A stretch of DNA of 64,000 bases, taken from an uncultured Erysipelotrichaceae bacterium (GTDB taxonomy: Bacteria > Bacillota_I > Bacilli_A > Erysipelotrichales > Erysipelotrichaceae). The stretch covers positions 1-64,000 of the forward strand of contig CALVFJ010000006.1 in the NCBI GenBank assembly GCA_944326795.1, written 5' to 3'. A program made the translations under genes and the position numbers. A model generated the notes under the pieces. The model was not told where the DNA came from. It ran no database searches and saw nothing but the letters and a program-made list of their open reading frames with translations. This document shows, piece by piece, positions 11,099-26,721 of the stretch (position 1 is the stretch's first letter; the number at the start of each line of letters is the position of its first letter).

Positions 11099-11632
11099 AT
11101 GAAAACTTATGAAAAATTATACCGTCATTTCATGACCATTACCAGACATAAATTTATGGTTACTTACCTTTGCTTTAAGCTGCACCTTTATAAACAAGGA
11201 ATATTACATGATCTAAGTAAATATTCCTGGGTGGAGTTTAGCGCCGGCGTTAAATATTTTCAAGGATATCGTTCGCCTATAGATGCCGAAAAAGCCGATA
11301 AAGGATATTCGTTGGGCTGGCTTCATCATAAAGGACGTAACAAGCACCATTGGGAATATTGGACCGATAAGAATCCTCAAGGCATCTTTTGTCATAAGAT
11401 CCCATATAATTATGTATTAGAAATGTGCTGTGATCGCATTGCTGCTTGCAAGATTTATCAAAAAGATAAATATACGCAAGCCAGTGCCTATGAATATTTT
11501 ATCAAGGGAACGGATCGTCTTTATATGCATCCTGATTCAGCAAAATTATTGCACACCATTCTTTTGATGGTCAAAGAAAAAGGAGAAGATCAAACCTTCT
11601 CCTATTTACGAAATAATAAACTTCCCTATTGA
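11099..11632 (+). CDS. DUF5662-like protein of unknown function
   Basis: 177 residues, cytosolic by appearance, rich in His, Tyr and Trp. Conserved-looking clusters are [11 protein letters not shown] (near 38-48) and [13 protein letters not shown] (near 76-88), which could bind a metal in an HD-like helical fold; this is inference. I recognise it as DUF5662, whose function I do not know. It is divergent from nusB and converges on guaB with a seven-base overlap of the coding ends. There is no visible SD before its ATG. Confidence 0.75.
11574..11603 (-). terminator. guaB terminator located inside the converging gene
   Basis: AGGAGAAG (11581-11588), seven-base loop, CTTCTCCT (11596-11603). Read on the minus strand the stem is followed by TTTTTCTTTGA. 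It lies about 25 bases past the guaB stop, wholly within the 3' coding end of the 11099-11632 gene. Confidence 0.75.
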
Positions 11633-13131
11633 CCTTCTTTGGTCTTTTCTTTAACGATGACATCATGTGCTCCGCCCTCAACGATGGAAGTTGCACTAAC
11701 CAAAGTCAATCGAGCTTTCTGTTGTAATTCTTTGATAGATAAAGCTCCGCAGTTGCACATCGTCGATTTGATCTTTGCTAATGTTGTTTGAACATTTTCT
11801 TTTAGGTAACCAGCATAAGGTACATAAGAATCTACACCTTCTTCAAAGCTAAGCTTCTGTGCTCCGCCTAGATCATAACGTTGCCAGTTGCGAGCACGAT
11901 TGCTTCCTTCGCCCCAATATTCTTTTACAAAGGTACCATTTATCATCAATTTATTAGTTGGTGATTCTTCAAAACGTGAAAAATAACGACCTAACATTAC
12001 AAAATCAGCACCCATGGCTAATGCTAAAGTTATGTGATAATCATATACGATACCACCATCAGAACAAATAGGAATATAAACTCCTGTTTCTTCAAAATAT
12101 TCATCACGGGCTTTGGCAACATCAATAACTGCGGTCGCTTGTCCACGTCCGATACCTTTTGTTTCTCTAGTAATACAGATTGATCCTCCACCGATACCGA
12201 TCTTGATAAAATCTGCTCCAGCTTCTGCTAAAAATCTAAAACCGTCTTTATCTACGACGTTCCCTGCTCCTACTTTTACGCTATCACCGTAGTGTTCTCT
12301 GATCCATGCTATCGTATCTTTTTGAAATTGAGAAAATCCTTCGGATGAATCGATACACAATACATCGACACCAGCTTCGATCAAAGCAGGTACACGCTGA
12401 GCATAATCACGAGTATTGATACCTGCACCAACGATATAGCTTTTATTACTATCTAATAATTCATTAGGATTATCTTTATGGCTATCGTAATCTTTTCTAA
12501 AGACCAAATAACAAAGATTTTGATCTTTATCAACAACAGGTAAAGTATTTAGTTTATGATCCCAGATCAAATCGTTGCAAACGCTCAAAGAATCAGTATC
12601 TTTCGCATAGATGATCTTTTCAAATGGTGTCATGAACTCTTTTACCTTTGTATTAAGATCCATCCGTGAAACACGATAATCACGGCTTGTTACCAATCCT
12701 AAAAATTTAGAATTAGGCTTCCCATCTACGGTAACCGGCATCGTTGAATGTCCGGTCTTGGCTAATAGATCCAAAACATCTTGCAAAGTATCATCAGGCG
12801 TTAGATTAGAATCGCTGACAACAAAACCTGCTTTATATGATTTAACACGATTAACCATCCTTGCTTGCGATTCTATAGATTGTGATCCATAAATGAAAGC
12901 AACTCCCCCTTCTTTGGCTAAAGCGACTCCCATTTTTTCCCCACTGACTGACTGCATGATTGCGCTAACCATTGGAATATTTAAGGACAATGCAGGTTCT
13001 TCACCTTTTTTGAATTTAACTAATGGTGTCTTTAATGAGACGCTTGATGGAATACAAGTAGCGTCACTATATCCAGGAACTAATAGATATTCGCTGAAGG
13101 TGTGACTTGCGTGTTCATAATAATAAGCCAT
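11626..13131 (-). CDS. guaB: IMP dehydrogenase, Tritrichomonas-type
   Basis: 501 residues. It oxidises IMP to XMP with NAD in guanine nucleotide synthesis. TIM barrel interrupted by a CBS pair (about 101-219). The catalytic loop [13 protein letters not shown] carries Cys319, and the flap carries Arg418-Tyr419 (NWQRYDLGG). Common bacterial IMPDHs have GPGSICTTR in the loop and a different flap. From memory, the Tritrichomonas foetus enzyme has the same loop, the same C-terminal stretch and the same numbering for Cys319, Arg418 and Tyr419. SD AAGGAGA. Monocistronic. Confidence 0.95.
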
Positions 13132-16501: not shown

Positions 16502-17047
16502 CTTAATGATGATATCTGCTAATTGCTTTGGCATTGATTTGATTAGATTTTTTGCCATTTCTTCTTCCGTCGGTGAAAGATCGTTATTTATCCATTCGAT
16601 CGTCATTGATATTGCACCGTGACAATATAATCGCAAAGCAAAATCAATATCTTGGCTTATCGCTTTTTGAGTATTTCGTTTAATTACATTAAGATAAAAA
16701 TGATAAATACAGTTAAAATCATAATTTATCAATGAATTACAATCATCTATCAAAAATGCTTGACGAAAGAAATTTTGTTCTTTACGGATATATTGAAATT
16801 TTTTGATCAAACCTTCTTCTAATGTCAAACCATTACCCATCTTTTTAAAAGACTTATCTGCTATTTTTTCAAAATACCAGTTAACAAGATCAAATTTATC
16901 TTTAAAATATCGATAAAATGTCTGTCTGGTCAAGCCACAATTATCAACGATATCTTTGACGGTTATCTTATTGATGCTATGCGTATTCATCAAATCGATA
17001 AGGGATTCAGCCAGCCAATATTTTGTTTTATCATTGCTGTCAATCAT
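16499..17047 (-). CDS. TetR/AcrR-family transcriptional regulator
   Basis: 182 residues. N-terminal TetR helix-turn-helix (about 10-55: INKITVKDIVDNCGLTRQT, then FYRYFKDKFDLVNWYF), then a helical ligand domain resembling the DhaS-type TetR_C group. Its ATG overlaps the hydA stop (TAATG), so it is co-translated with hydrogenase. Likely targets are its own operon or fucO immediately downstream; the effector is unknown. Confidence 0.85.
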   Translation of the reverse strand: MIDSNDKTKYWLAESLIDLMNTHSINKITVKDIVDNCGLTRQTFYRYFKDKFDLVNWYFEKIADKSFKKMGNGLTLEEGLIKKFQYIRKEQNFFRQAFLIDDCNSLINYDFNCIYHFYLNVIKRNTQKAISQDIDFALRLYCHGAISMTIEWINNDLSPTEEEMAKNLIKSMPKQLADIIIK

Positions 17048-18795
17048 TAGATCTTGAATTTTATCTTTTGAGAATATGTCGTATGTAACAATTTATGTGC
17101 TATATGAGACCCAGGTTTTTCTAGGAATTCTTCATATAGAGCTTTGATCTGGCTATTTTCATGTGATTTACGAACTTCGCATAGCTTATCTTCATCGTAT
17201 AAAGCTTTTGCTCTTAAAGCTTTATAATCTACATCATTATTTTTAACCCTGCTAGACACGATCGATTGTCCTCCCCCATTGATGCATCCGCCAGGACATC
17301 CCATGATTTCGATAAAATGATAAGGGCTACGATGATTTTTGATATCATCTAATAATGGCTTAGCATTTACCATACCTGAGGCAACCGCTACCTTTACTTC
17401 CATGCCATTGATATTTAAGGTAGCGTGTTTTACGCCTTGCATGCCTCGAACTTCTTCAAAATCGATCTTATCTAATTCTTTATGTTCTAGCAATTCCTTT
17501 ACTGTTCGTAGTGCAGCTTCCATAACACCGCCACTTGCTCCAAAGATAACTCCAGCTCCAGAATATTCGCCAAACATATCATCATCAAACTCTTCATCTG
17601 GTAAATTATTTAGATCAATACCATACATCTTTAATAACCTACCGCATTCTCTGGTTGTTAGAACTGCATCAACATCAGGATATTCATTGGTCATGCATTC
17701 ATGACGTTTGATCTCGGATTTTTTTGCAGTACAAGGCATGATAGAAACAACATAGATATCTTTTGGATCAATACCTTTTACTTTAGCATAATGTGATTTC
17801 AAGATGGCGCCCAGCATCATATGCGGTGATTTACAACTACTTAGATGATCAAGGATTTCCGGATATTCATACTCAACATATTTTATCCAGCCTGGACTAC
17901 AAGATGTGATCATTGGTAAGATACCATTATTTTGTAAACGTTCGATAAATTCTGTTCCTTCTTCCATGATCGTAAGATCAGCACCAAAGTTAGTATCATA
18001 TACCCTATTGAAACCTACTCTTCTTAAAGCTGCAACCATCTTACCAGTTACGCGTGTTCCGATCGGCATATTAAATTCTTCTCCTAACGAAGCTCTAACG
18101 GCTGGAGCTGTTTGAACGATAACATGCTTGTTTTCATCATTTAGGGCTTGAATAACTCGATGGATATCCTCTTTTTCACTTAAAGCACCTACGGGACAAG
18201 CATTGATGCATTGACCACACTGCATGCAATTAACTTCAGCAAAACTTTTGTCCATAACTGGTGCAACTTTGGTATTAAAACCGCGGTTTTGAAAACCTAA
18301 GATACCTAATCCTTGTACTTTCTTACATGTCTCTACACAACGTCCACATAAAACGCATTTGCTTGAATCACGAACGATACCAAAGCTAAAATCATCAAAA
18401 CTAACAGGCGTATGTTCACCATTAAATTTATCTTCACGAATACCTAGTTCTTCAGTTAATTTTTGTAATTCACAATTTTGGTTGCGTACACAGCTCAAAC
18501 AATTTTTAGAATGATTAGAAAGAATTAGCTCCACGCTATTTTTTCGCGCTTGTAACGCTTTATTGCTATGGGTATAAACTTCTAAGCCTTCTGATACCGG
18601 ATAAACACAAGCAGCAGCTAGATTCTTTGCATTTTTTACTTCTACCAGACAAACACGACAATTACCGCTTTGATTTACATCTTTCAAATAACATAGGGTC
18701 GGAATATTGATACCGGCTTTTTTAGCTGCTGTTAAGATCGTATCATTTTCATCACAACGGACATTGATATTATTTATTTTGATATTTACGCTCAT
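17047..18795 (-). CDS. hydA: [FeFe] hydrogenase catalytic subunit, NAD-linked bifurcating type
   Basis: 582 residues from the ATG at 18795, chosen over an ATG 33 bases upstream because of the SD GAGAGGAGA. In order: 2Fe-2S ferredoxin domain (C35, C46, C49, C63), His-ligated cluster (H95, C99, C102, C108), two 4Fe-4S motifs (C147-C157, C190-C200) and the H-cluster domain with L1 ITSCSPGW (C299), L2 MPCTAKK (C355), L3 MGCPGGC (C500, C504), then a small-subunit tail. L1 has one Cys where the textbook motif TSCCPxW has two. With the NuoF- and NuoE-like subunits it would make H2 from NADH and ferredoxin. Maturases HydEFG are not in the window. Confidence 0.95.
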   Translation of the reverse strand: MSVNIKINNINVRCDENDTILTAAKKAGINIPTLCYLKDVNQSGNCRVCLVEVKNAKNLAAACVYPVSEGLEVYTHSNKALQARKNSVELILSNHSKNCLSCVRNQNCELQKLTEELGIREDKFNGEHTPVSFDDFSFGIVRDSSKCVLCGRCVETCKKVQGLGILGFQNRGFNTKVAPVMDKSFAEVNCMQCGQCINACPVGALSEKEDIHRVIQALNDENKHVIVQTAPAVRASLGEEFNMPIGTRVTGKMVAALRRVGFNRVYDTNFGADLTIMEEGTEFIERLQNNGILPMITSCSPGWIKYVEYEYPEILDHLSSCKSPHMMLGAILKSHYAKVKGIDPKDIYVVSIMPCTAKKSEIKRHECMTNEYPDVDAVLTTRECGRLLKMYGIDLNNLPDEEFDDDMFGEYSGAGVIFGASGGVMEAALRTVKELLEHKELDKIDFEEVRGMQGVKHATLNINGMEVKVAVASGMVNAKPLLDDIKNHRSPYHFIEIMGCPGGCINGGGQSIVSSRVKNNDVDYKALRAKALYDEDKLCEVRKSHENSQIKALYEEFLEKPGSHIAHKLLHTTYSQKIKFKI

Positions 18796-18797
18796 GT

Positions 18798-20594
18798 TTA
18801 TCTCCTCTCGATTGCATTGAAACGGCAAGCATTATAGCAAGCTCCGCATTTGATACATTTACTGGTATCGATATGATATGGTTCTTTACCTGGAACACCG
18901 CTGATAGCACCAACTGGACAGTTTTTGGCACATAGCGAACACTTACGGCATAGATCAGCTTTGACCTGATAAGTTAATAGCGCCTTACATACTCCTGCAG
19001 GACAACGTTTATCAACAACATGCGCTTCATATTCTTTTCTAAATTGTTTTAAGGTCGATAGAATAGGATTTGGCGCTGTTTGTCCTAAACCACATAAAGC
19101 TGTTTGCTTGATCTCATAACATAGTTTTTCCATCTCATCCAAGATTTCTAAGCCGCCTTCACCTTTAGTTATCTTGATCAACATTTCTAATAATCTTTTA
19201 GTTCCTACCCGACATGGAGTACACTTACCGCAGCTTTCTTCTACGATAAAATCCAGATAGAAACGGGCAACATCCACCATACAATTATCTTCATCTAAAA
19301 CGATCATACCACCAGATCCCATCATGCTACCTAATTCGACCAGATTATCAAAGTCTATTGGCGTATCTAGCTGGTCTTCGGTCAGACATCCGCCACTTGG
19401 TCCACCTGTTTGAACGGCTTTAAAATTCTTATTATTAGGACAGCCACCGCCGATCTCATAAATAATTTCTCTAAGGGTAGTTCCCATCGGAATTTCAACA
19501 AGTCCGGTATTGCTGATCTTGCCACCTAAAGCGAACACTTTTGTTCCTTTGGATCTTTCCGTACCGATATTTGCAAACCAGCTTGCACCATTTAAGATGA
19601 TTTGTGCCACATTAGCAAAGGTTTCTACGTTGTTGATGATCGTTGGTTTTCCCCATACGCCACTAACAGCAGGAAATGGCGGTTTTGGCACTGGCATTCC
19701 TCGTTTTCCTTCGATAGACATGATCAACGCTGTTTCTTCGCCACATACGAAAGCGCCAGCTCCTAATCTAATCTCTAGTTCAAAGCTAAAATCTGTACCT
19801 AAGATATTTTTACCTAGCAAACCATATTCTTCAGCTTGTTTGATAGCTATCTTCAACCGTTGCACAGCAATAGGATATTCAGCTCGAATATAGATATATC
19901 CATGATCCGCACCGATCGCATATCCTGCAATGGCCATGGCTTCGATTACGCTATGTGGATCGCCTTCAAGGATCGATCTATCCATGAATGCTCCAGGATC
20001 GCCTTCATCAGCATTACATATCACATATTTTTGCCCTTTTGGCTGATTGGCGGCAAATTGCCATTTAACGCCTGTTGGAAAACCACCGCCGCCTCGGCCA
20101 CGTAATCCAGAAGCTTTTATTTCATCAATTACTTCCTGCGGTGTCATCTCACTAATAACTTTTCCTAAAGCCATGTATCCATCTTTGGCAATATATTCCA
20201 TGATATCTTCAGGATTTATGACACCACAATTACGTAAAGCAATTCTTTTTTGCTTAGCATAAAATTTGATCTTATCGATATCTAGGATCTGTTCTTTAGT
20301 TGCTTCATCAATTTCGCTCAGTTCTAAACGTTTAACAACACGTCCTTTATATAAATGTTCAGAAATTATAACTTCAACATCTTCGACCTTAACATGATTA
20401 TAGAAAACTTTATCTGGATAAATTGCAACGATCGGTCCTTTTTGACATAAACCAAAACATCCGGTCTTAATTACTTTTACTTCTTCTTCTAAACCATATT
20501 GAGGCAAAAGTTCGTTAAACTTTTGGACCAATAAAGCTGAATTACTGCTGGTACATCCCGTACCAGCACAAATTAATACGTTTATTCTTTCCAT
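18798..20594 (-). CDS. hydB: NADH-binding (NuoF-like) hydrogenase subunit
   Basis: 598 residues. N-terminal thioredoxin-like 2Fe-2S domain (1-90, with CAGTGC and TGCFGLC), central NuoF domain with GLRGRGGGGFPTG and CNADEGDPGAF for FMN/NADH, 4Fe-4S motif EESCGKCTPCRVG, and a C-terminal pair of ferredoxin motifs (CRKCSLCAKNCP, CIKCGACYNAC). This domain set is that of HydB/HndC of bifurcating hydrogenases. It is two bases upstream of hydA. Confidence 0.95.
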   Translation of the reverse strand: MERINVLICAGTGCTSSNSALLVQKFNELLPQYGLEEEVKVIKTGCFGLCQKGPIVAIYPDKVFYNHVKVEDVEVIISEHLYKGRVVKRLELSEIDEATKEQILDIDKIKFYAKQKRIALRNCGVINPEDIMEYIAKDGYMALGKVISEMTPQEVIDEIKASGLRGRGGGGFPTGVKWQFAANQPKGQKYVICNADEGDPGAFMDRSILEGDPHSVIEAMAIAGYAIGADHGYIYIRAEYPIAVQRLKIAIKQAEEYGLLGKNILGTDFSFELEIRLGAGAFVCGEETALIMSIEGKRGMPVPKPPFPAVSGVWGKPTIINNVETFANVAQIILNGASWFANIGTERSKGTKVFALGGKISNTGLVEIPMGTTLREIIYEIGGGCPNNKNFKAVQTGGPSGGCLTEDQLDTPIDFDNLVELGSMMGSGGMIVLDEDNCMVDVARFYLDFIVEESCGKCTPCRVGTKRLLEMLIKITKGEGGLEILDEMEKLCYEIKQTALCGLGQTAPNPILSTLKQFRKEYEAHVVDKRCPAGVCKALLTYQVKADLCRKCSLCAKNCPVGAISGVPGKEPYHIDTSKCIKCGACYNACRFNAIERR

Positions 20595-20603
20595 AAATGT
20601 CTC

Positions 20604-20972
20604 CTATTTTTGATAGCTATCAATGGTAAATTCTGTTAAGATCCGATCTTTTAGGATATGATTTTGCAATATGCTCACTGCTTTTTCAGGCGTTACATGA
20701 ACATAAGTGGTTTTAGTTTGATCTTCTTGATTAAAAACTTCAACGATTGGTTCATAAGCACATAAACCAATGCAACCAGTCTGGGTTACGATGCAAGGGT
20801 AATCATTATTACCTAGCTCTTCGATCAGCTTGTTTAACACTGGTCTAGCTCCGGCAGCAATTCCGCAAGTAGCCATACCTACGACGACACGATATTTTTT
20901 ATTAACATCTCGCATTTCAACTTTTTTTAATGCTTTTTCTCGCATTTTTTTCAAATCTTCTAAGCTTTTCAT
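20604..20972 (-). CDS. Thioredoxin-like 2Fe-2S ferredoxin subunit (HndB-like)
   Basis: 122 residues from the ATG at 20972, selected for SD AAAGGAGAG and the four-base overlap with the upstream stop. One thioredoxin-like [2Fe-2S] domain: ATCGIAAGARPV and QTGCIGLCAYEP provide the four Cys. It resembles HndB of the Desulfovibrio NADP-reducing hydrogenase and probably relays electrons within the complex. Confidence 0.88.
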   Translation of the reverse strand: MKSLEDLKKMREKALKKVEMRDVNKKYRVVVGMATCGIAAGARPVLNKLIEELGNNDYPCIVTQTGCIGLCAYEPIVEVFNQEDQTKTTYVHVTPEKAVSILQNHILKDRILTEFTIDSYQK

Positions 20973-21523
20973 AGATTCTCTCCTTTTATACCTTGATTTA
21001 TATATTCCTTGATCCACAACAGGATATCAGGTTCATCGATGTTGACCTCACCTAGTTCCTGTTTTATTAGCTTGGTATCAAAGAAGAACGTATGTTCATC
21101 CTTGATATATTGTAAGATAAAATCGATATCGGCATTTGCCTGGATACAAAACATCATCATTTGTCCAATGTTGCCTAATGGCGGAATATCCCAATGATCA
21201 TATGGCAATTTTACCACGGTGATCGTTCCTATGTTTTCTTTGCTTTTGATCGTCAGATCTCCGTTACATTGATCGCATAGATGCTGTAAAAAAGCAACTC
21301 CTAAACCGATCTTTCGAGTTTTTCTAGTTGTTGTAAAAGGATTAGTAACATTTGCCAATAATTCATCATTCATGCCTTTGCCATCATCTTCAATGATGAT
21401 CAGCAATTGATTTATACTAGTTTTTATCTCGATATGACAGATGATATTATTGCTGTTTGCATATATGCTGTTCATTAATATTTCGATGATGTACATTGCT
21501 ATATCTTGCATCATTGTGACCAT
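20969..21523 (-). CDS. HATPase-domain protein (histidine-kinase-like ATPase without phosphoacceptor domain)
   Basis: 184 residues. GHKL fold: N-box EILMNSIYANSNN (14-26), G1 DDGKGM, G2 TRKIGLGVAFL. There is no His-containing dimerisation domain, no sensor and no membrane segment. The C-terminal 80 residues are not recognised. It begins inside the PHP gene (13-base overlap) and ends overlapping the ferredoxin gene. Such proteins recur beside clostridial hydrogenases; the function is unproven. Confidence 0.8.
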   Translation of the reverse strand: MVTMMQDIAMYIIEILMNSIYANSNNIICHIEIKTSINQLLIIIEDDGKGMNDELLANVTNPFTTTRKTRKIGLGVAFLQHLCDQCNGDLTIKSKENIGTITVVKLPYDHWDIPPLGNIGQMMMFCIQANADIDFILQYIKDEHTFFFDTKLIKQELGEVNIDEPDILLWIKEYINQGIKGENL

Positions 21524-22197
21524 AGCTTTTGAAATGTTATATCATCAAAAGCATTTTCCCTTTCATTGATGTCTATCAATCGATGAGCATCGGAATTGAT
21601 AATAAAAATTTTATTGGTTAAATATGAATATGCTTTTTTTAGATAAGATATCTGTTCAACATTTTTGACTTCAAAAGCATCAGCTTTGATGTCAGGTGGT
21701 ATAAAACCAAGCTGATTGATGATACTATTTTTTCTATCTAATACGTGAGCTAAAACTGCAGCTCCATGGTATTCATGGATCTTATCGATGCATGTATCAA
21801 TATCGATGAATGTGCTAGTTATCAAAAGATCTTTATATTCGTTTATAACTTGATCATTTTCATCCATTATTAGCTGATGACCGAAATAACTAGGATCATT
21901 AGCGGTTTTTAGCTTATTAGGTTCAAGCCATATATCGAATTCTTGGGCATCATTCAATGATTTAAATAAACCTAAGACATGTACCTCTTCAATAGTTTCT
22001 ACTTCAATACCATAAATGATATTCATATTTGTCCTTAATTTTGCAAAGGCAGATAATTGCAAGGTTGAATTATGATCGCATATGGCAATGACATCTAGTC
22101 CTTTTATCATTGCCATATTAACGATATTATTTGGCGTCATATCATCATCGGCACATGGTGAAAGGCATGAATGGATATGCAGATCATAAAACATCAT
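21511..22197 (-). CDS. PHP-domain metal-dependent phosphoesterase
   Basis: 228 residues from the ATG at 22197, which overlaps the preceding stop as ATGA. PHP motifs: DLHIHSCLSPC, ICDHN, a mid-domain AHVLDR, and NSDAHRL near the end, which together give a trinuclear metal site. An extra in-frame start 30 bases upstream is less likely. Substrate unknown; in this context it may act on a phospho-protein or nucleotide signal (inference). Confidence 0.82.
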   Translation of the reverse strand: MMFYDLHIHSCLSPCADDDMTPNNIVNMAMIKGLDVIAICDHNSTLQLSAFAKLRTNMNIIYGIEVETIEEVHVLGLFKSLNDAQEFDIWLEPNKLKTANDPSYFGHQLIMDENDQVINEYKDLLITSTFIDIDTCIDKIHEYHGAAVLAHVLDRKNSIINQLGFIPPDIKADAFEVKNVEQISYLKKAYSYLTNKIFIINSDAHRLIDINERENAFDDITFQKLWSQ

Positions 22198-22523
22198 AAG
22201 CCTAAACCAGCTAATGCTTTGGCACACTCATAAGCATTTAATGAAGTTTGAATAAGATTAACCTCTTCTTGTTGACATTTTAAGACAAAATCTTCATCAC
22301 ATTGGGCCCCATCACAAATTAATAGGCAGCTAAATTCTTTTAATAAACTTACAGCTACGACATTTAAATGGGCTTGGACCGTAATCCAGATCTGTCCTTC
22401 ATCTCCATTGGCCATGACCCAACTTAATAAATCACCAATGAATACTCCGCTTACATCTTTTTTTTCATCAGCTAGATTGATAAAGTTAAAAGCTGATATT
22501 TTTTTCAGGTCCTGTACTTTCAT
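22194..22523 (-). CDS. DRTGG-domain protein (second of two)
   Basis: 109 residues, single DRTGG-type alpha/beta domain: starts MKVQDLKKISAFNFINLAD and has the GVFIGDLLSWVMANG segment typical of these modules in clostridial hydrogenase operons. DRTGG domains otherwise occur in CBS- and HPr-kinase-related proteins as suspected ligand sensors. Overlaps both neighbours by four bases. Confidence 0.75.
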   Translation of the reverse strand: MKVQDLKKISAFNFINLADEKKDVSGVFIGDLLSWVMANGDEGQIWITVQAHLNVVAVSLLKEFSCLLICDGAQCDEDFVLKCQQEEVNLIQTSLNAYECAKALAGLGL

Positions 22524-23680
22524 ATTTCACCTTCTTTTGTTTTTAATATCTGACAATCTTTTAGGGTCTTATGACCATTAACAATTTCTTCGGCCATAAA
22601 GCGACAGGTTGGTAAACCGCATGCTGTACAATCATAGCCCGGTAATTTTTCTAGCTGCAGGTTAACAGCATTAAAATATTTTAGTTTTTCTTGAATACTG
22701 CGATGATCTATATCGATATCTTCAAAAACGGGCTTGATGAAATATTGTTCGTTGATGTTGGCTATGACATTTGTCGAGGCAATTTCATCAATATTTCTTG
22801 TTGCAGTATAAGCATTTCCCCACATCAAATGACCACCTAGACATCCACCATAGCATGGATATAATCTTATAAGCTCAAAATCTTCGAGCAATCCAAATTC
22901 AGCCATCTCAAGGATATTCAAGATGCTATCAAACCCATCAGCTACAAGGATCTTTGGATCTTTTTTTATGGTCAATGGCGAAGTAGTAATCAAGCCTTCC
23001 TTGCTAAGTTCAATTAATTTATTTCCATTTGACATCAGAGTTTTGATTCTTGGAAAGATATCAACGATGCTAAGAGCATGATCAACTTCATATTGTAAAT
23101 TTTGATATGGAAATTTAGCAAGAGCTAATTTTGCGGCACACTCACAAAGATTGAATACTCCTATTTGTTTATTAGGATGCTGATCTTTGATCATTTTTGC
23201 CATAATTTCGCTAGGATAGTTAAGCGGCAACAATTTATCTGCTAAGACCGGAAATTTGATCTTAACTAAATTATTGACCAATGGGCAAAATGAACTTAGA
23301 TACATTTCATTCTTTGGATATTTTTGCGCTTTATCATAAACCGCAGCCTCAACAGGACTAAGATCAACGATTTCATCAAAGCCTAGCTGCCGCAAAGCGT
23401 CAAACAGTTCGTTAACTTTATGTTTGGATTCCAAGTGACAGGATAAAGCGCTAGGAACCAAGCAAACAGTATAATTATAGCTGCTAATATCATCTAAGGT
23501 ACTGCCCTTTGCTGTTATACCTTTATGATGACAAGCATTGATACATTTAAAACAATTGATACAATTTTTTTTATCGATCACGATGCGGTTATTTTGCATC
23601 CTGATGGCTTTAGTTGGACATGATTGAACACAGCGCATGCATTTGGAACACTTGCTTAAAGTATAGGTTATAACGCTCAT
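22520..23680 (-). CDS. Sensory-type [FeFe]-hydrogenase-like iron-sulfur protein
   Basis: 386 residues. Two N-terminal 4Fe-4S motifs (C11-C21, C40-C50), a shortened H-cluster domain, and a C-terminal Fe-S module (C351, C354, C359, C376). The H-cluster cysteines can all be placed: C132 in SSFCPLV, C181 in CECAAK, C276 and C280 in YPCYGGC. The residue before C132, normally the proton-relay Cys, is Phe131, and L2/L3 deviate from MPCxxK and ExMxC. This matches the sensory/unknown hydrogenase groups (C/D), not a fast enzyme. Confidence 0.85.
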   Translation of the reverse strand: MSVITYTLSKCSKCMRCVQSCPTKAIRMQNNRIVIDKKNCINCFKCINACHHKGITAKGSTLDDISSYNYTVCLVPSALSCHLESKHKVNELFDALRQLGFDEIVDLSPVEAAVYDKAQKYPKNEMYLSSFCPLVNNLVKIKFPVLADKLLPLNYPSEIMAKMIKDQHPNKQIGVFNLCECAAKLALAKFPYQNLQYEVDHALSIVDIFPRIKTLMSNGNKLIELSKEGLITTSPLTIKKDPKILVADGFDSILNILEMAEFGLLEDFELIRLYPCYGGCLGGHLMWGNAYTATRNIDEIASTNVIANINEQYFIKPVFEDIDIDHRSIQEKLKYFNAVNLQLEKLPGYDCTACGLPTCRFMAEEIVNGHKTLKDCQILKTKEGEI

Positions 23681-23681
23681 A

Positions 23682-24098
23682 TCAGTACCCTTTAAATGTC
23701 AAGGTCAAGATCGTTCCAGCTGGACTAGTTTTTATATCAAAGGTATCAGACACCCTTTTTATATTTACTAGTCCCATCCCGGCTCCAAAGCCGAGATTTC
23801 TGGCTTTTTCATCAGCAGTTGACCAGCCAGGGGTCATAGCTTTTTCTAAATCAGGAATACCTGGTCCCAAATCGTGAAATGTCAAGGTAATCAGGCCTTC
23901 ATCATCAACATTCATAAGAATGTTACCTCCATACGCATGAATAACCATATTTATCTCTGCTTCATAACTTGCAACAGCTATCCTTCGTAAGATCTTAGCG
24001 TCAAAGCCAATTTGTAAAAGCATCTTTTTGATCTGACTGCTTACCTTACCCATATTATGATAATCTTGATTGACAACTTCAAAACTTTTATTCAACAT
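23682..24098 (-). CDS. RsbW-like anti-sigma-factor ATPase
   Basis: 138 residues, GHKL ATPase of the serine-kinase anti-sigma type: N-box EAEINMVIHAYGG, G1 DLGPGIPD, G2 GFGAGMGLVNIKRV. No anti-anti-sigma partner or sigma factor gene is next to it; the adjoining DRTGG proteins may fill the partner role (inference). It overlaps the upstream DRTGG gene by 11 bases. Confidence 0.8.
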   Translation of the reverse strand: MLNKSFEVVNQDYHNMGKVSSQIKKMLLQIGFDAKILRRIAVASYEAEINMVIHAYGGNILMNVDDEGLITLTFHDLGPGIPDLEKAMTPGWSTADEKARNLGFGAGMGLVNIKRVSDTFDIKTSPAGTILTLTFKGY

Positions 24099-24453
24099 TT
24101 ACGCCCTTTAATCCTTGTGCATAAAGTCTTCCGCATGCATCAAACATCGTATAATGCGTCGTAAATATATTACATCTCATTTCTTTTGTCATGTCCAAAT
24201 TGTCGATATCTAGCATCTTGCCTCTAACATAAACAATTAATTCTAAATCTAGCATTTCTGCAGTTCTAAGCGATTGTATATTGCAACATCCTGTTAATAA
24301 GACCGTTGATCCGTCATCATTTGATATCATTGCTAAAGCATCGCTCATAAGATCAGTTGCAAAACAAAATTGATAATCTTTTTCTAAAAAATGTTTGGTA
24401 TTTATATTTATCGGTTCAGCGTCCAAGATCTTGATGATATCTTTTGCTAGCAT
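24088..24453 (-). CDS. DRTGG-domain protein (first of two)
   Basis: 121 residues, starting MLAKDIIKILDAEPININ; contains FATDLMSDALAMI and TGCCNIQSLRTAEMLDL, as in the DRTGG proteins next to NuoE-like subunits in clostridial hydrogenase clusters. It lies one base after the NuoE-like gene. No enzymatic motif visible. Confidence 0.75.
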   Translation of the reverse strand: MLAKDIIKILDAEPININTKHFLEKDYQFCFATDLMSDALAMISNDDGSTVLLTGCCNIQSLRTAEMLDLELIVYVRGKMLDIDNLDMTKEMRCNIFTTHYTMFDACGRLYAQGLKGVNVE

Positions 24454-24454
24454 A

Positions 24455-24946
24455 TCAATGTCTTCTTTCTGATTGGATGATCTTGGTAATGATATCTTCT
24501 ACTACATTAGATTCATTAGCATTACCATATACCTTATCATCAATGATTACTACTGGTGCTAAACCACAAGCTCCCAAACATCGTGTTGCATCTAAAGAAA
24601 ATAAACCATCCTCACTAGTTCCGTTGATCGGCGCATGCGTAAGATCCATGATATGATTTATCAATTCTTGAGCACCTTTAACATAACAAGCCGTACCCAT
24701 ACAAACATTGATGACACATTTGCCTTTTGGTTCCGTCGTAAATTGGGTATAGAAAGTTACTACTCCATATACTTCAGCGACACTAACATTACAAGCTTCT
24801 GCAATCTTTTCCATTGCTTCAAAAGGAATATAGCCTAGCTCGCTTTGAACATCATGGAGCATTAGTTTGACCGGACCCATCTTATCTTTATGTTTTAAGA
24901 CGATCTCATCAATTTTACGGCGCGATTCTATATTCAGTTTCTCCAT
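24455..24946 (-). CDS. hydC: NuoE-like 2Fe-2S hydrogenase subunit
   Basis: 163 residues. N-terminal helical bundle (LMLHDVQSELGYIPFEAM, VYGVVTFYTQF) and thioredoxin-like [2Fe-2S] domain with CMGTAC and CLGACG. It forms the electron-transfer arm with HydB in bifurcating hydrogenases. Very strong SD (GAGGAGG) inside the end of the permease gene six bases upstream. Confidence 0.94.
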   Translation of the reverse strand: MEKLNIESRRKIDEIVLKHKDKMGPVKLMLHDVQSELGYIPFEAMEKIAEACNVSVAEVYGVVTFYTQFTTEPKGKCVINVCMGTACYVKGAQELINHIMDLTHAPINGTSEDGLFSLDATRCLGACGLAPVVIIDDKVYGNANESNVVEDIITKIIQSERRH

Positions 24947-24952
24947 TTTTAT

Positions 24953-25696
24953 TTACCTCCTCTTCTGATAAAAATGAATGAAAATATCAAATATCAAATC
25001 GATCGATATACAAATCAAAATGATTATTATCGTATAAGCAAAAATAGCAGTCATATCTAGATCAAGCTTAGCAAGCTGCAATAAGCGGCCAATGCCTTGT
25101 GTAGTTTGTCCTAAGATCTCTGCCATGACCCCAACTTTAAATCCTAAGGATACACACGTCTTCAAATTACTTAAGACCAAAGGGTATAAATATGGAAGAA
25201 GATGAAAACGTAATGTATTGATAAAACTTTCATGATAAATCAATTCTACATCATGATATTTTGTGTCCATGTTTTCTAAAGAATAAACGATATTTGCATA
25301 GATCATTGGAAAAATGATCAAGAAGCAAATGATACTTACACTTTTATTCGAACCAAACCATATCAAGATAATGATGATATAGCTGATATTGGGAATAGTT
25401 TTTATGATCTTATTTAAAGGTTCGAAAAAATAGCGAATGCTTTTAAAGCGATAACCACCGATACCTATGATCATTGCAAGAAGCAAGCTGATAATACATG
25501 CAGAAAACACATGAAATAAGGTTGTGCCCAATGCGCGATAAAATGTTACATCGAACAAGATATGGAACAAACAATTTAATGTTGTCAAAGGATAAGGTAT
25601 CAAAACATCATTTTGCACTTGATGGGCTAGCCATATCCAAAATATGAAAATTAACATACAAGCTATTATGTATTCTTTTTTTACAACTTTTTTCAT
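24953..25696 (-). CDS. ABC transporter permease (SsuC/TauC-like), first gene of the hydrogenase operon
   Basis: 247 residues with about six membrane segments and a degenerate EAA loop (around 150-180, ending FHLLPYLYPLVLSNL). Fold class of nitrate/sulfonate/taurine-type importers. No ABC ATPase gene lies beside it. The likely partner binding protein is the next gene upstream (25777-26721), across a terminator. Its ATG is only six bases from a TATAAT box with no SD, so the mRNA may be leaderless. Substrate unknown. Confidence 0.85.
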   Translation of the reverse strand: MKKVVKKEYIIACMLIFIFWIWLAHQVQNDVLIPYPLTTLNCLFHILFDVTFYRALGTTLFHVFSACIISLLLAMIIGIGGYRFKSIRYFFEPLNKIIKTIPNISYIIIILIWFGSNKSVSIICFLIIFPMIYANIVYSLENMDTKYHDVELIYHESFINTLRFHLLPYLYPLVLSNLKTCVSLGFKVGVMAEILGQTTQGIGRLLQLAKLDLDMTAIFAYTIIIILICISIDLIFDIFIHFYQKRR

Positions 25697-25702
25697 ATGT
25701 CA

Positions 25703-25731
25703 ATTATACAATACAACCGCTTACATTGCCA
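25703..25731 (-). promoter_or_regulatory. Promoter of the permease-hydrogenase operon with imperfect cre in the spacer
   Basis: Minus strand TATAAT (25703-25708), 17-base spacer, weak -35 TGGCAA (25726-25731). The spacer holds TGTAAGCGGTTGTA (25712-25725), 12 of 14 positions of the cre consensus TGWAANCGNTNWCA. Only six bases separate the -10 from the ATG. Confidence 0.5.
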
Positions 25732-25738
25732 TAAAACT

Positions 25739-25770
25739 TTAAAAAAACCTGGATTTTGTAATCCAGGTCT
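25739..25770 (-). terminator. Terminator of the thrS-lipoprotein operon
   Basis: ACCTGGATT/AATCCAGGT nine-base perfect stem with a TTGT loop, followed on the minus strand by a seven-T run. Confidence 0.92.
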
Positions 25771-25776
25771 TGTAAT

Positions 25777-26721
25777 TTATTTGATAAGCGCACCCTCAAT
25801 ATCATTTATTTCAAATAATTGTAAGAAATTTTTTAATTGTTCTTGAGCATCATTAGCAGCAACGACATCAAGATTCAAGCGATTCCATGTCTTGCTAGCG
25901 ATATTACCGTTTGGTACTCCTAAGATATCTGATCCAACTTGATCAACGATATCAACGACCATTTCATTATTGCTGTTTGCTTCATCAACAAATGATCTTA
26001 TCTCACTGATCAGCATGTCTATGCTATCTTTATTATTTTCATAACTTTCTTCTAGCACAAAAATACCTGCTTGCGGATAGCTTGAGCCATATTTTTCTTG
26101 CCACATTTGTTGAAGATCAGCAATGATAGTTAATTCTTTGCCGTTTTCTTTAGCTTTGGCAATGGTGGCAGTTGCCGCAGGTTCAGCTAATAAAGCAACG
26201 TCTGCATTATCGCTTAGCAATGCTGCTTGCGCTTCAGCAACGCTTGGATAATATGTCTTGTTCATTGAAAGATCTTGATATAAATCTTCAAAAACTAAAC
26301 CAACTACGGCATTTTCGCCAAATAAAGCAATTTCTTTACCACTTTCAAGAGCATCGCTAGGTCCTACAAGATATAGATTGCCCCATGTAAGGATATCGAT
26401 CAATTTGTATGAAGTTTTGCCAGCTGCTGCCAACTTAACCCCAAGATTGGTCGGAGCTATGATGATATCATATTCAGGATCCGGATTAACCAATGCTGCT
26501 TGCAATACATCGCTACCATCAACCGTAGTGACCGAATGTTCATTTTCGATGATAACTTGCGTTAAAGGCAAAGCTGTCGCTCCTTTAGGAGCTAAGATAT
26601 TTAATGAAACGTTATCTGCAGTTGAGGTAGGAGTTATCGTTGCCTCGATCATATCTTTTGATGTTGTGGAACATCCAGCTAATACCATCAAACTTAATAA
26701 TAGAATAATTAATTTTTTCAT
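25777..26721 (-). CDS. ABC transporter substrate-binding lipoprotein
   Basis: 314 residues. Lipoprotein signal MKKLIILLLSLMVLAGCS (Cys at 17) followed by a periplasmic-binding fold of the SsuA/NMT1 class (pattern LAPKGATALPLTQVI, then ALLAEPAATATIA). It starts three bases after thrS and ends in a terminator, so it is expressed from the Thr T-box. The ligand cannot be read from sequence; the T-box context suggests an amino-acid link, while the permease class suggests sulfonate- or thiamin-precursor-like substrates. Confidence 0.82.
   Translation of the reverse strand: MKKLIILLLSLMVLAGCSTTSKDMIEATITPTSTADNVSLNILAPKGATALPLTQVIIENEHSVTTVDGSDVLQAALVNPDPEYDIIIAPTNLGVKLAAAGKTSYKLIDILTWGNLYLVGPSDALESGKEIALFGENAVVGLVFEDLYQDLSMNKTYYPSVAEAQAALLSDNADVALLAEPAATATIAKAKENGKELTIIADLQQMWQEKYGSSYPQAGIFVLEESYENNKDSIDMLISEIRSFVDEANSNNEMVVDIVDQVGSDILGVPNGNIASKTWNRLNLDVVAANDAQEQLKNFLQLFEINDIEGALIK

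Follow-up and report, generated by a model that had tools for sequence, protein, structure and literature searches.

A conserved six-gene block in a HydABC operon of an Erysipelotrichaceae bacterium is a candidate accessory signaling cassette built around an RsbW-like kinase

The window analyzed here, 64,000 nucleotides of an uncultured Erysipelotrichaceae bacterium (GenBank assembly GCA_944326795.1, contig CALVFJ010000006.1, positions 1 to 64,000), carries a HydABC hydrogenase operon that includes a cassette of six contiguous open reading frames (ORFs; 20969-24453, minus strand) with gaps of no more than 1 bp or short overlaps between them. The cassette codes for two DRTGG-domain proteins (DRT1 and DRT2), an RsbW-like GHKL ATPase, an [FeFe]-hydrogenase-like protein (HydX), a PHP-family phosphoesterase, and a second GHKL ATPase (HATP), and it is flanked by the NuoE/HydC gene on one side and by the 2Fe-2S, NuoF, and HydA genes on the other (Table 1). 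The ORF list and the Pfam matches agree with the original prediction, made from the sequence alone, that these six genes lie without gaps between the NuoE-like and the HndB/NuoF/HydA genes. Judging by the corresponding genes in relatives, PHP and the 2Fe-2S protein probably start later than their longest ORFs, and the true overlaps are therefore shorter than those ORFs imply.

Table 1. Cassette genes and neighboring hydrogenase genes in the window
Feature	Coordinates	Strand	Evidence and remarks
DRT1, DRTGG-domain protein, 121 aa	24088..24453	-	ORF; cassette gene 1; DLMSD motif (Ser37) invariant
RsbW-like GHKL ATPase/kinase, 138 aa	23682..24098	-	HATPase_c_2 1e-12; N, G1, and G2 boxes complete
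HydX, [FeFe]-hydrogenase-like, 386 aa	22520..23680	-	Fe_hyd_lg_C 9.8e-16; FeS (PF04060) 6e-11; layout: 2x[4Fe-4S] ferredoxin domain, H-domain, C-terminal Cx2Cx4Cx16C
DRT2, second DRTGG-domain protein, 109 aa	22194..22523	-	PF07085 6.6e-5; GDLLS motif (Ser34) invariant
PHP-family metal-dependent phosphoesterase	21511..22227	-	PF02811 1.9e-7; start probably ~22197
HATP, second GHKL ATPase, 184 aa	20969..21523	-	HATPase_c 4.8e-14; counterpart of Acetobacterium woodii HydE
Context: NuoE/HydC-like [2Fe-2S] subunit	24455..24946	-	PF01257 2.6e-44
Context: thioredoxin-like 2Fe-2S protein (A. woodii HydD position)	20604..21017	-	PF01257 2.1e-5; start probably 20972
Context: NuoF/HydB-like flavoprotein subunit	18798..20594	-	Complex1_51K 5.4e-49
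Context: HydA, catalytic group A [FeFe]-hydrogenase	17047..18828	-	closest solved structure A. woodii HydA1 7q4v, E 5e-214

The cassette was followed in 58 genomes of the host family and in a sample of 398 clostridial-phylum genomes (the phylum to which L129, an Oscillospiraceae bacterium, belongs; loci carry the prefix L). HydX orthologues are present in 14 of the 58 family genomes, and the order NuoE-DRT1-RsbW-HydX-DRT2-PHP-HATP-2Fe2S-NuoF-HydA is identical in all 14, so the arrangement is not due to chance. The cassette order also agrees in 80 named loci as far as the contigs reach (nearly all of them), with the position of NuoE varying in other lineages while DRT1-RsbW-HydX-DRT2-PHP remain together. 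Since these 80 loci were retrieved with HydX as the anchor, the reverse direction, with RsbW as the query, was also tested. RsbW (A2) was counted in the phylum sample at E ≤ 1e-28 and HydX (A1) at E ≤ 1e-50, because E ≤ 1e-30 also picks up HydS-type proteins and split HydX genes. The co-occurrence analysis proposed in the original prediction, run for these two families, finds both in 153 genomes, HydX alone in 3, RsbW alone in 14, and neither in 228 (Fisher 8e-89, uncorrected for kinship). HydX is immediately preceded by RsbW, directly upstream, in 119 of the 120 genomes with both positions listed; RsbW and HydX are near-obligate partners.

Close relatives of the host HydABC operon repeatedly lack the cassette, which is therefore accessory. 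Nine HydA-bearing family genomes have no HydX; eight of these lack the entire cassette, and one (L200) keeps five genes, missing only HydX, with RsbW overlapping DRT2. Cassette-free HydABC operons include ones with HydA proteins ∼65 to 72% identical to that of the window (72% in L196). The cassette state changes at least five times on a HydA tree (seven by parsimony), and among the family members on that tree the labels for the cassette and for a PP2C phosphatase, described below, are no more clustered than shuffled labels. The block thus moves together and is often absent beside close HydA relatives, in keeping with the earlier proposal of a separate, signaling-like module with no obvious structural subunits, and obligate structural subunits of HydABC are ruled out by the cassette-free operons. 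It is very unlikely that the six proteins are additional subunits, structural or electron-transferring, of some larger complex, with HydX as an added electron entry or exit: all Fe-S motifs are kept in HydX and the genes are packed tightly with those of the enzyme, but HydABC operons without the cassette are common in the host family, and no hydrogenase lies near DRT1-RsbW(-HydX) in L224, near DRT1-RsbW in L242, where it adjoins Rex, or, within the stretch examined, near DRT1-RsbW-HydX in L208.

HydX retains the H-cluster cysteines C132, C181, C276, and C280, and K184 is kept in 85% of the sequences; the label of a degenerate hydrogenase, first given to it, is too strong for a protein with these conserved ligands and was rejected, and its Phe131 does align with the C299 position of the usual proton-relay cysteine, as had been noted. 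The C-terminal Cx2Cx4Cx16C motif corresponds to C351-C354-C359-C376, there is no PAS domain, and the M353 position is Cys179 in the branch of the window HydX and Ser or Thr in clostridial HydX. A sequence search of solved structures returns mostly ferredoxins and weak hydrogenase matches, and a fold search with the AlphaFold model (predicted local distance difference test [pLDDT] score 88.9) matches [FeFe]-hydrogenases. HydX forms its own clade (100/100 support) apart from HydS, group B, and HydA in a tree built without TamHydS. The retained motifs, the loss of C299, the separate clade, and the Ser/Thr or Cys at M353 together mark HydX as a divergent, group D (M2e)-like putative sensory hydrogenase.

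TamHydS of Thermoanaerobacter mathranii (group D/M2e) is similar to HydX in its two N-terminal [4Fe-4S] motifs, H-domain, Cx2Cx4Cx16C motif, lack of a PAS domain, and loss of C299, and it likewise has as neighbors a histidine-kinase-like ATPase and a group A hydrogenase of the bifurcating type (PMC8163306, PMC13104023). M2e hydrogenases have Ser or Thr at M353 (PMC8163306), as do the clostridial HydX proteins, whereas the window HydX has Cys (C179) there and Phe at C299. The activity of TamHydS has been measured and is slow but real (PMC8163306). The accessible portions of these reports describe no DRTGG or PHP partners for TamHydS (PMC8163306, PMC13104023), and the 2026 paper on group D hydrogenases calls finding interaction partners critical for the signaling mechanism (PMC13104023); the near-obligate neighbors RsbW, DRT1, and DRT2 are direct candidates for such partners. 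Some HydX proteins vary at otherwise conserved sites: L050 has Ala at the near-invariant Cys adjoining ligand L2, and at the Lys358 position L224 has Glu and L160 and L164 have Asn. Such proteins may be unable to bind a normal H-cluster. Paralogous H-domain proteins encoded close to the cassette carry fused output domains, either sigma54-activator domains, in one case together with a Fis-type helix-turn-helix, or PAS-HisKA-HATPase (L209:17606-19900, L216:486-2855, and L219:13469-15769), and are predicted to be transcription regulators and kinases with a hydrogenase domain.

Profile searches show a likeness of RsbW to SpoIIAB, its best PDB matches are SpoIIAB structures, and it keeps the N-box Glu of SpoIIAB/RsbW and a complete ATP lid. 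The RsbW, PHP, and DRTGG motifs are ∼100% conserved in alignments of relatives. The window copy of DRT1 has no credible Pfam match, and a DRTGG-profile sequence search of the PDB gave weak hits; its identity was decided by a fold search, in which the AlphaFold model (pLDDT 92.7) matches the DRTGG structures 2ioj (TM score 0.77) and 3l2b, as well as CBS-DRTGG regulatory regions and HPr kinase N domains. DRT1 orthologues fused to RsbW match PF07085 directly (3e-8 and 2e-7), and the DRT2 match, at 23.1 bits, falls just below the cutoff of 25.2. Ser37 of DRT1 is kept in 103 of 103 sequences and Ser34 of DRT2 in 108 of 108.

DRT1 and RsbW are a single protein in ten genomes (L245-L247, L251, L253-L256, L260, and L266), and further fusions join HydX to DRTGG (L219) and PHP to GHKL (L213). 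A second variation is an N-terminal CBS pair, an energy-sensing type of domain, on RsbW; it occurs at eleven loci from nine genomes (L209, L236-L238, L252, L258, L259, and L261-L264) and matches PF00571 at E ≤ 1e-29 in the three RsbW proteins tested with Pfam. Seven of these eleven have no HydX alongside (among them L238, with a HydABC operon that lacks nothing else), whereas four do (L209, L252, L258, and L263), so the CBS pair is a frequent but not a constant substitute for HydX. The fusion and CBS genomes were chosen for a long or HydX-less RsbW, and these proportions are therefore no estimate for nature. The gene for the NADH-responsive repressor Rex lies directly before, and often overlaps, the DRTGG-RsbW fusion gene in the same ten genomes, and in 20 of 138 loci Rex is no more than 9 kb away on the same strand.

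Pfam finds neither HisKA nor Response_reg in any of the six cassette proteins of the window, such that the original description of two kinase-like ATPases without a receiver is accurate for RsbW and HATP; they do not form a two-component system by that measure. HATP is a case of its own within the cassette, of which the A. woodii operon has only the HATP counterpart, HydE. HATP and the 2Fe-2S gene match HydE and HydD in position and in the order hydC-hydE-hydD-hydB-hydA, but the A. woodii hyd operon has five genes, without DRTGG, RsbW, HydX, or PHP, and the active enzyme does not include HydE (PMC3315566).

PHP retains its metal-site residues H17, H19, D51, H52, E75, H83, H161, D213, and H215 (98 to 100%), and its nearest named models are nucleic acid or nucleotide phosphoesterases (RNase RNM and 3',5'-nucleoside bisphosphate phosphatase). 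The host genome has a second operon (L052) coding for a group B hydrogenase, an 83-aa 2Fe-2S protein, a HydS-like protein, and a SpoIIE/PP2C phosphatase (PF07228). It has the same layout as the hfs operon (HfsABCD; HydS/HydA2 of Ruminococcus albus) (PMC11837493), but is a locus separate from the cassette, and HydS and HydX form distinct clades. The PP2C is present in 10 of 14 HydX-positive but only 1 of 44 HydX-negative family genomes (p 2e-7), in 10 of 14 versus 0 of 9 when only HydA-bearing genomes are compared, and in 86 of 156 versus 34 of 242 genomes of the clostridial phylum (kinship uncorrected). PP2C and cassette are lost together in four sister contrasts on the HydA tree, and PP2C never occurs in the cassette-free sister. 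This covariation makes the SpoIIE/PP2C of the second hydrogenase operon a better candidate phosphatase than PHP. In Thermoanaerobacterium, deletion of hfsB has regulatory effects and is suppressed by hyd mutations, genetic evidence that the regulation of the hfs genes and that of the hyd genes are interconnected (PMC5707799, PMC11837493).

These features bear on two other explanations. RsbW shares with the RsbW/SpoIIAB anti-sigma kinases the GHKL fold and intact N, G1, and G2 boxes, and a PP2C counter-phosphatase is present as in partner switching, but it is highly improbable that RsbW acts on a sigma factor by way of a STAS protein encoded elsewhere, with DRTGG and the rest as bystanders: no STAS match was detected at E ≤ 0.01 in the host genome, which is 81% complete, RsbW adjoins or is fused to DRTGG rather than STAS, and no sigma factor was noticed in the loci examined, although no genome-wide search for one was made. 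Alternatively, DRTGG, and CBS where present, could bind an adenine nucleotide that PHP hydrolyzes, with RsbW and HATP using ATP for conformation only and phosphorylating no protein. The closest PHP models, the likeness of DRT1 to CBS-DRTGG and HPr kinase regions, and the fact that CBS pairs usually bind adenylates are consistent with such a second-messenger or nucleotide system, which is nevertheless quite unlikely given the N-box Glu and full ATP lid of RsbW and the covarying PP2C.

The cassette is not confined to hydrogenase operons. The last gene of L217 codes for a NuoG-like N terminus and a formate dehydrogenase (TIGR01591, 691.8 bits; cutoff, 666) interrupted by a stop codon that probably specifies selenocysteine, and similar formate dehydrogenase contexts occur in L213, L215, L218, and L223 of the clostridial phylum. 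The cassette leads straight into an rnf operon in L252 and L263, as do DRT1 and CBS-RsbW in L261, and RnfC of the rnf-linked loci passes the TIGR01945 cutoff. The common thread of the HydABC, formate dehydrogenase, and Rnf contexts is enzymes linking ferredoxin and NAD. These contexts, together with the loci without a hydrogenase nearby, rule out H2-specific sensing as a full account, and the earlier view that the cassette reads H2 for the hydrogenase is not supported in that form; of the phospho-switch proposed to read H2 or redox state, the signaling-like module is supported, but an H2 phospho-switch is too specific. Other signaling genes adjoin some cassette variants, including a short HisKA-HATPase kinase (L213:12790-13572), and a PAS-GGDEF diguanylate cyclase and a CheW-like protein (L208:6731-8263 and 11484-11936).

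That the cassette accompanies three multicofactor redox complexes also fits an assembly, maturation, or repair module, in which the GHKL ATPases would be chaperone-like, HydX a cluster or electron donor for building NuoEF-type flavin/Fe-S complexes, and PHP would clear a damaged or inhibitory nucleotide; the A. woodii authors left HydE as "assembly or signaling" (PMC3315566). We regard this module as unlikely because close HydABC operons do without the cassette, RsbW is of the SpoIIAB/RsbW kinase kind and no known chaperone, and the CBS pairs on RsbW and the covariation with PP2C/HydS point to regulation.

Among the neighboring genes, the window HydA passes the NCBIfam cutoff for "NADH-dependent [FeFe] hydrogenase, group A6," though the nearest solved structure, A. 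woodii HydA1, is that of a bifurcating enzyme; bifurcation by the window HydA is putative. A binding-protein-dependent ATP-binding cassette (ABC) transporter, with a permease and a lipoprotein-type substrate-binding protein, lies directly upstream of NuoE (24953-26721); the same type is found beside the cassette in 58 of 138 loci from many lineages, sometimes downstream of HydA.

On balance, the six genes are probably an accessory RsbW-kinase signaling cassette with swappable sensors that tunes enzymes coupling ferredoxin and NAD(H), here HydABC of the same operon. RsbW, as a GHKL protein kinase of the SpoIIAB/RsbW type, would be the hub, and DRT1, and perhaps DRT2, its partner or phospho-acceptor in place of a STAS anti-anti-sigma factor. 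Sensory input may come from HydX, as a group D-like H-cluster protein that responds to H2 or to electrons of low potential, or, in related operons, from the CBS pair fused to RsbW. PHP may strip a phosphate or nucleotide signal, and in many genomes the SpoIIE/PP2C of the hfs-type operon could counteract the kinase. The output is most likely at the protein level, on the enzyme of the same operon. The sequences themselves show the makeup and order of the cassette, the co-occurrence of its genes, the fusions, the CBS-bearing RsbW, the intact catalytic motifs, and the accessory character, whereas kinase activity, DRTGG as its substrate, H2 as the signal, the phosphatase roles, and the output are inferred.

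Several observations weigh against this interpretation. L200 has five cassette genes but neither HydX nor a CBS pair on RsbW, and CBS pair and HydX occur together in four loci. The invariant DRTGG serines could be ligand-site residues rather than phosphosites. PP2C is missing from 4 of 14 HydX-positive family genomes and from 70 of 156 in the clostridial phylum, and the absence of STAS rests on an incomplete genome. No transcription factor belonging to the cassette is visible, genes found with hydrogenase, formate dehydrogenase, and Rnf would also suit assembly or repair of flavin/Fe-S enzymes, and the support is sequence based.

Parts of the arrangement were already known, namely group D hydrogenases beside kinase-like ATPases and an equivalent gene list in the hydrogenase operon of Halanaerobium hydrogeniformans (Halsa_1862-1871), printed in 2014, with PHP, Fe-S hydrogenase-like, anti-sigma/kinase, NuoE, and histidine kinase entries; in the portion of that paper available, this is an annotation list with no discussion of function or mechanism (PMC4237134). 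A literature search, with subscription papers mostly outside its reach, turned up one unrelated paper for DRTGG together with hydrogenase and nothing on DRTGG partners, fusions, CBS-bearing RsbW, formate dehydrogenase or Rnf contexts, or covariation with PP2C.

A broader proposal, possible but rather doubtful, is that DRTGG proteins are a new class of RsbW-kinase partner or phospho-acceptor replacing STAS, and that a DRTGG-RsbW core with swappable sensors (group D hydrogenase or CBS) directly controls hydrogenase, formate dehydrogenase, and Rnf as a common redox-energy switch in fermenters. Because the cassette also accompanies formate dehydrogenase and Rnf, it may serve more generally to control the balance of ferredoxin and NADH, on which the yields of H2, ethanol, formate, and acetate depend in gut and industrial anaerobes; its probable role in fermenting bacteria is to signal how the electron pools of ferredoxin and NADH should be balanced.

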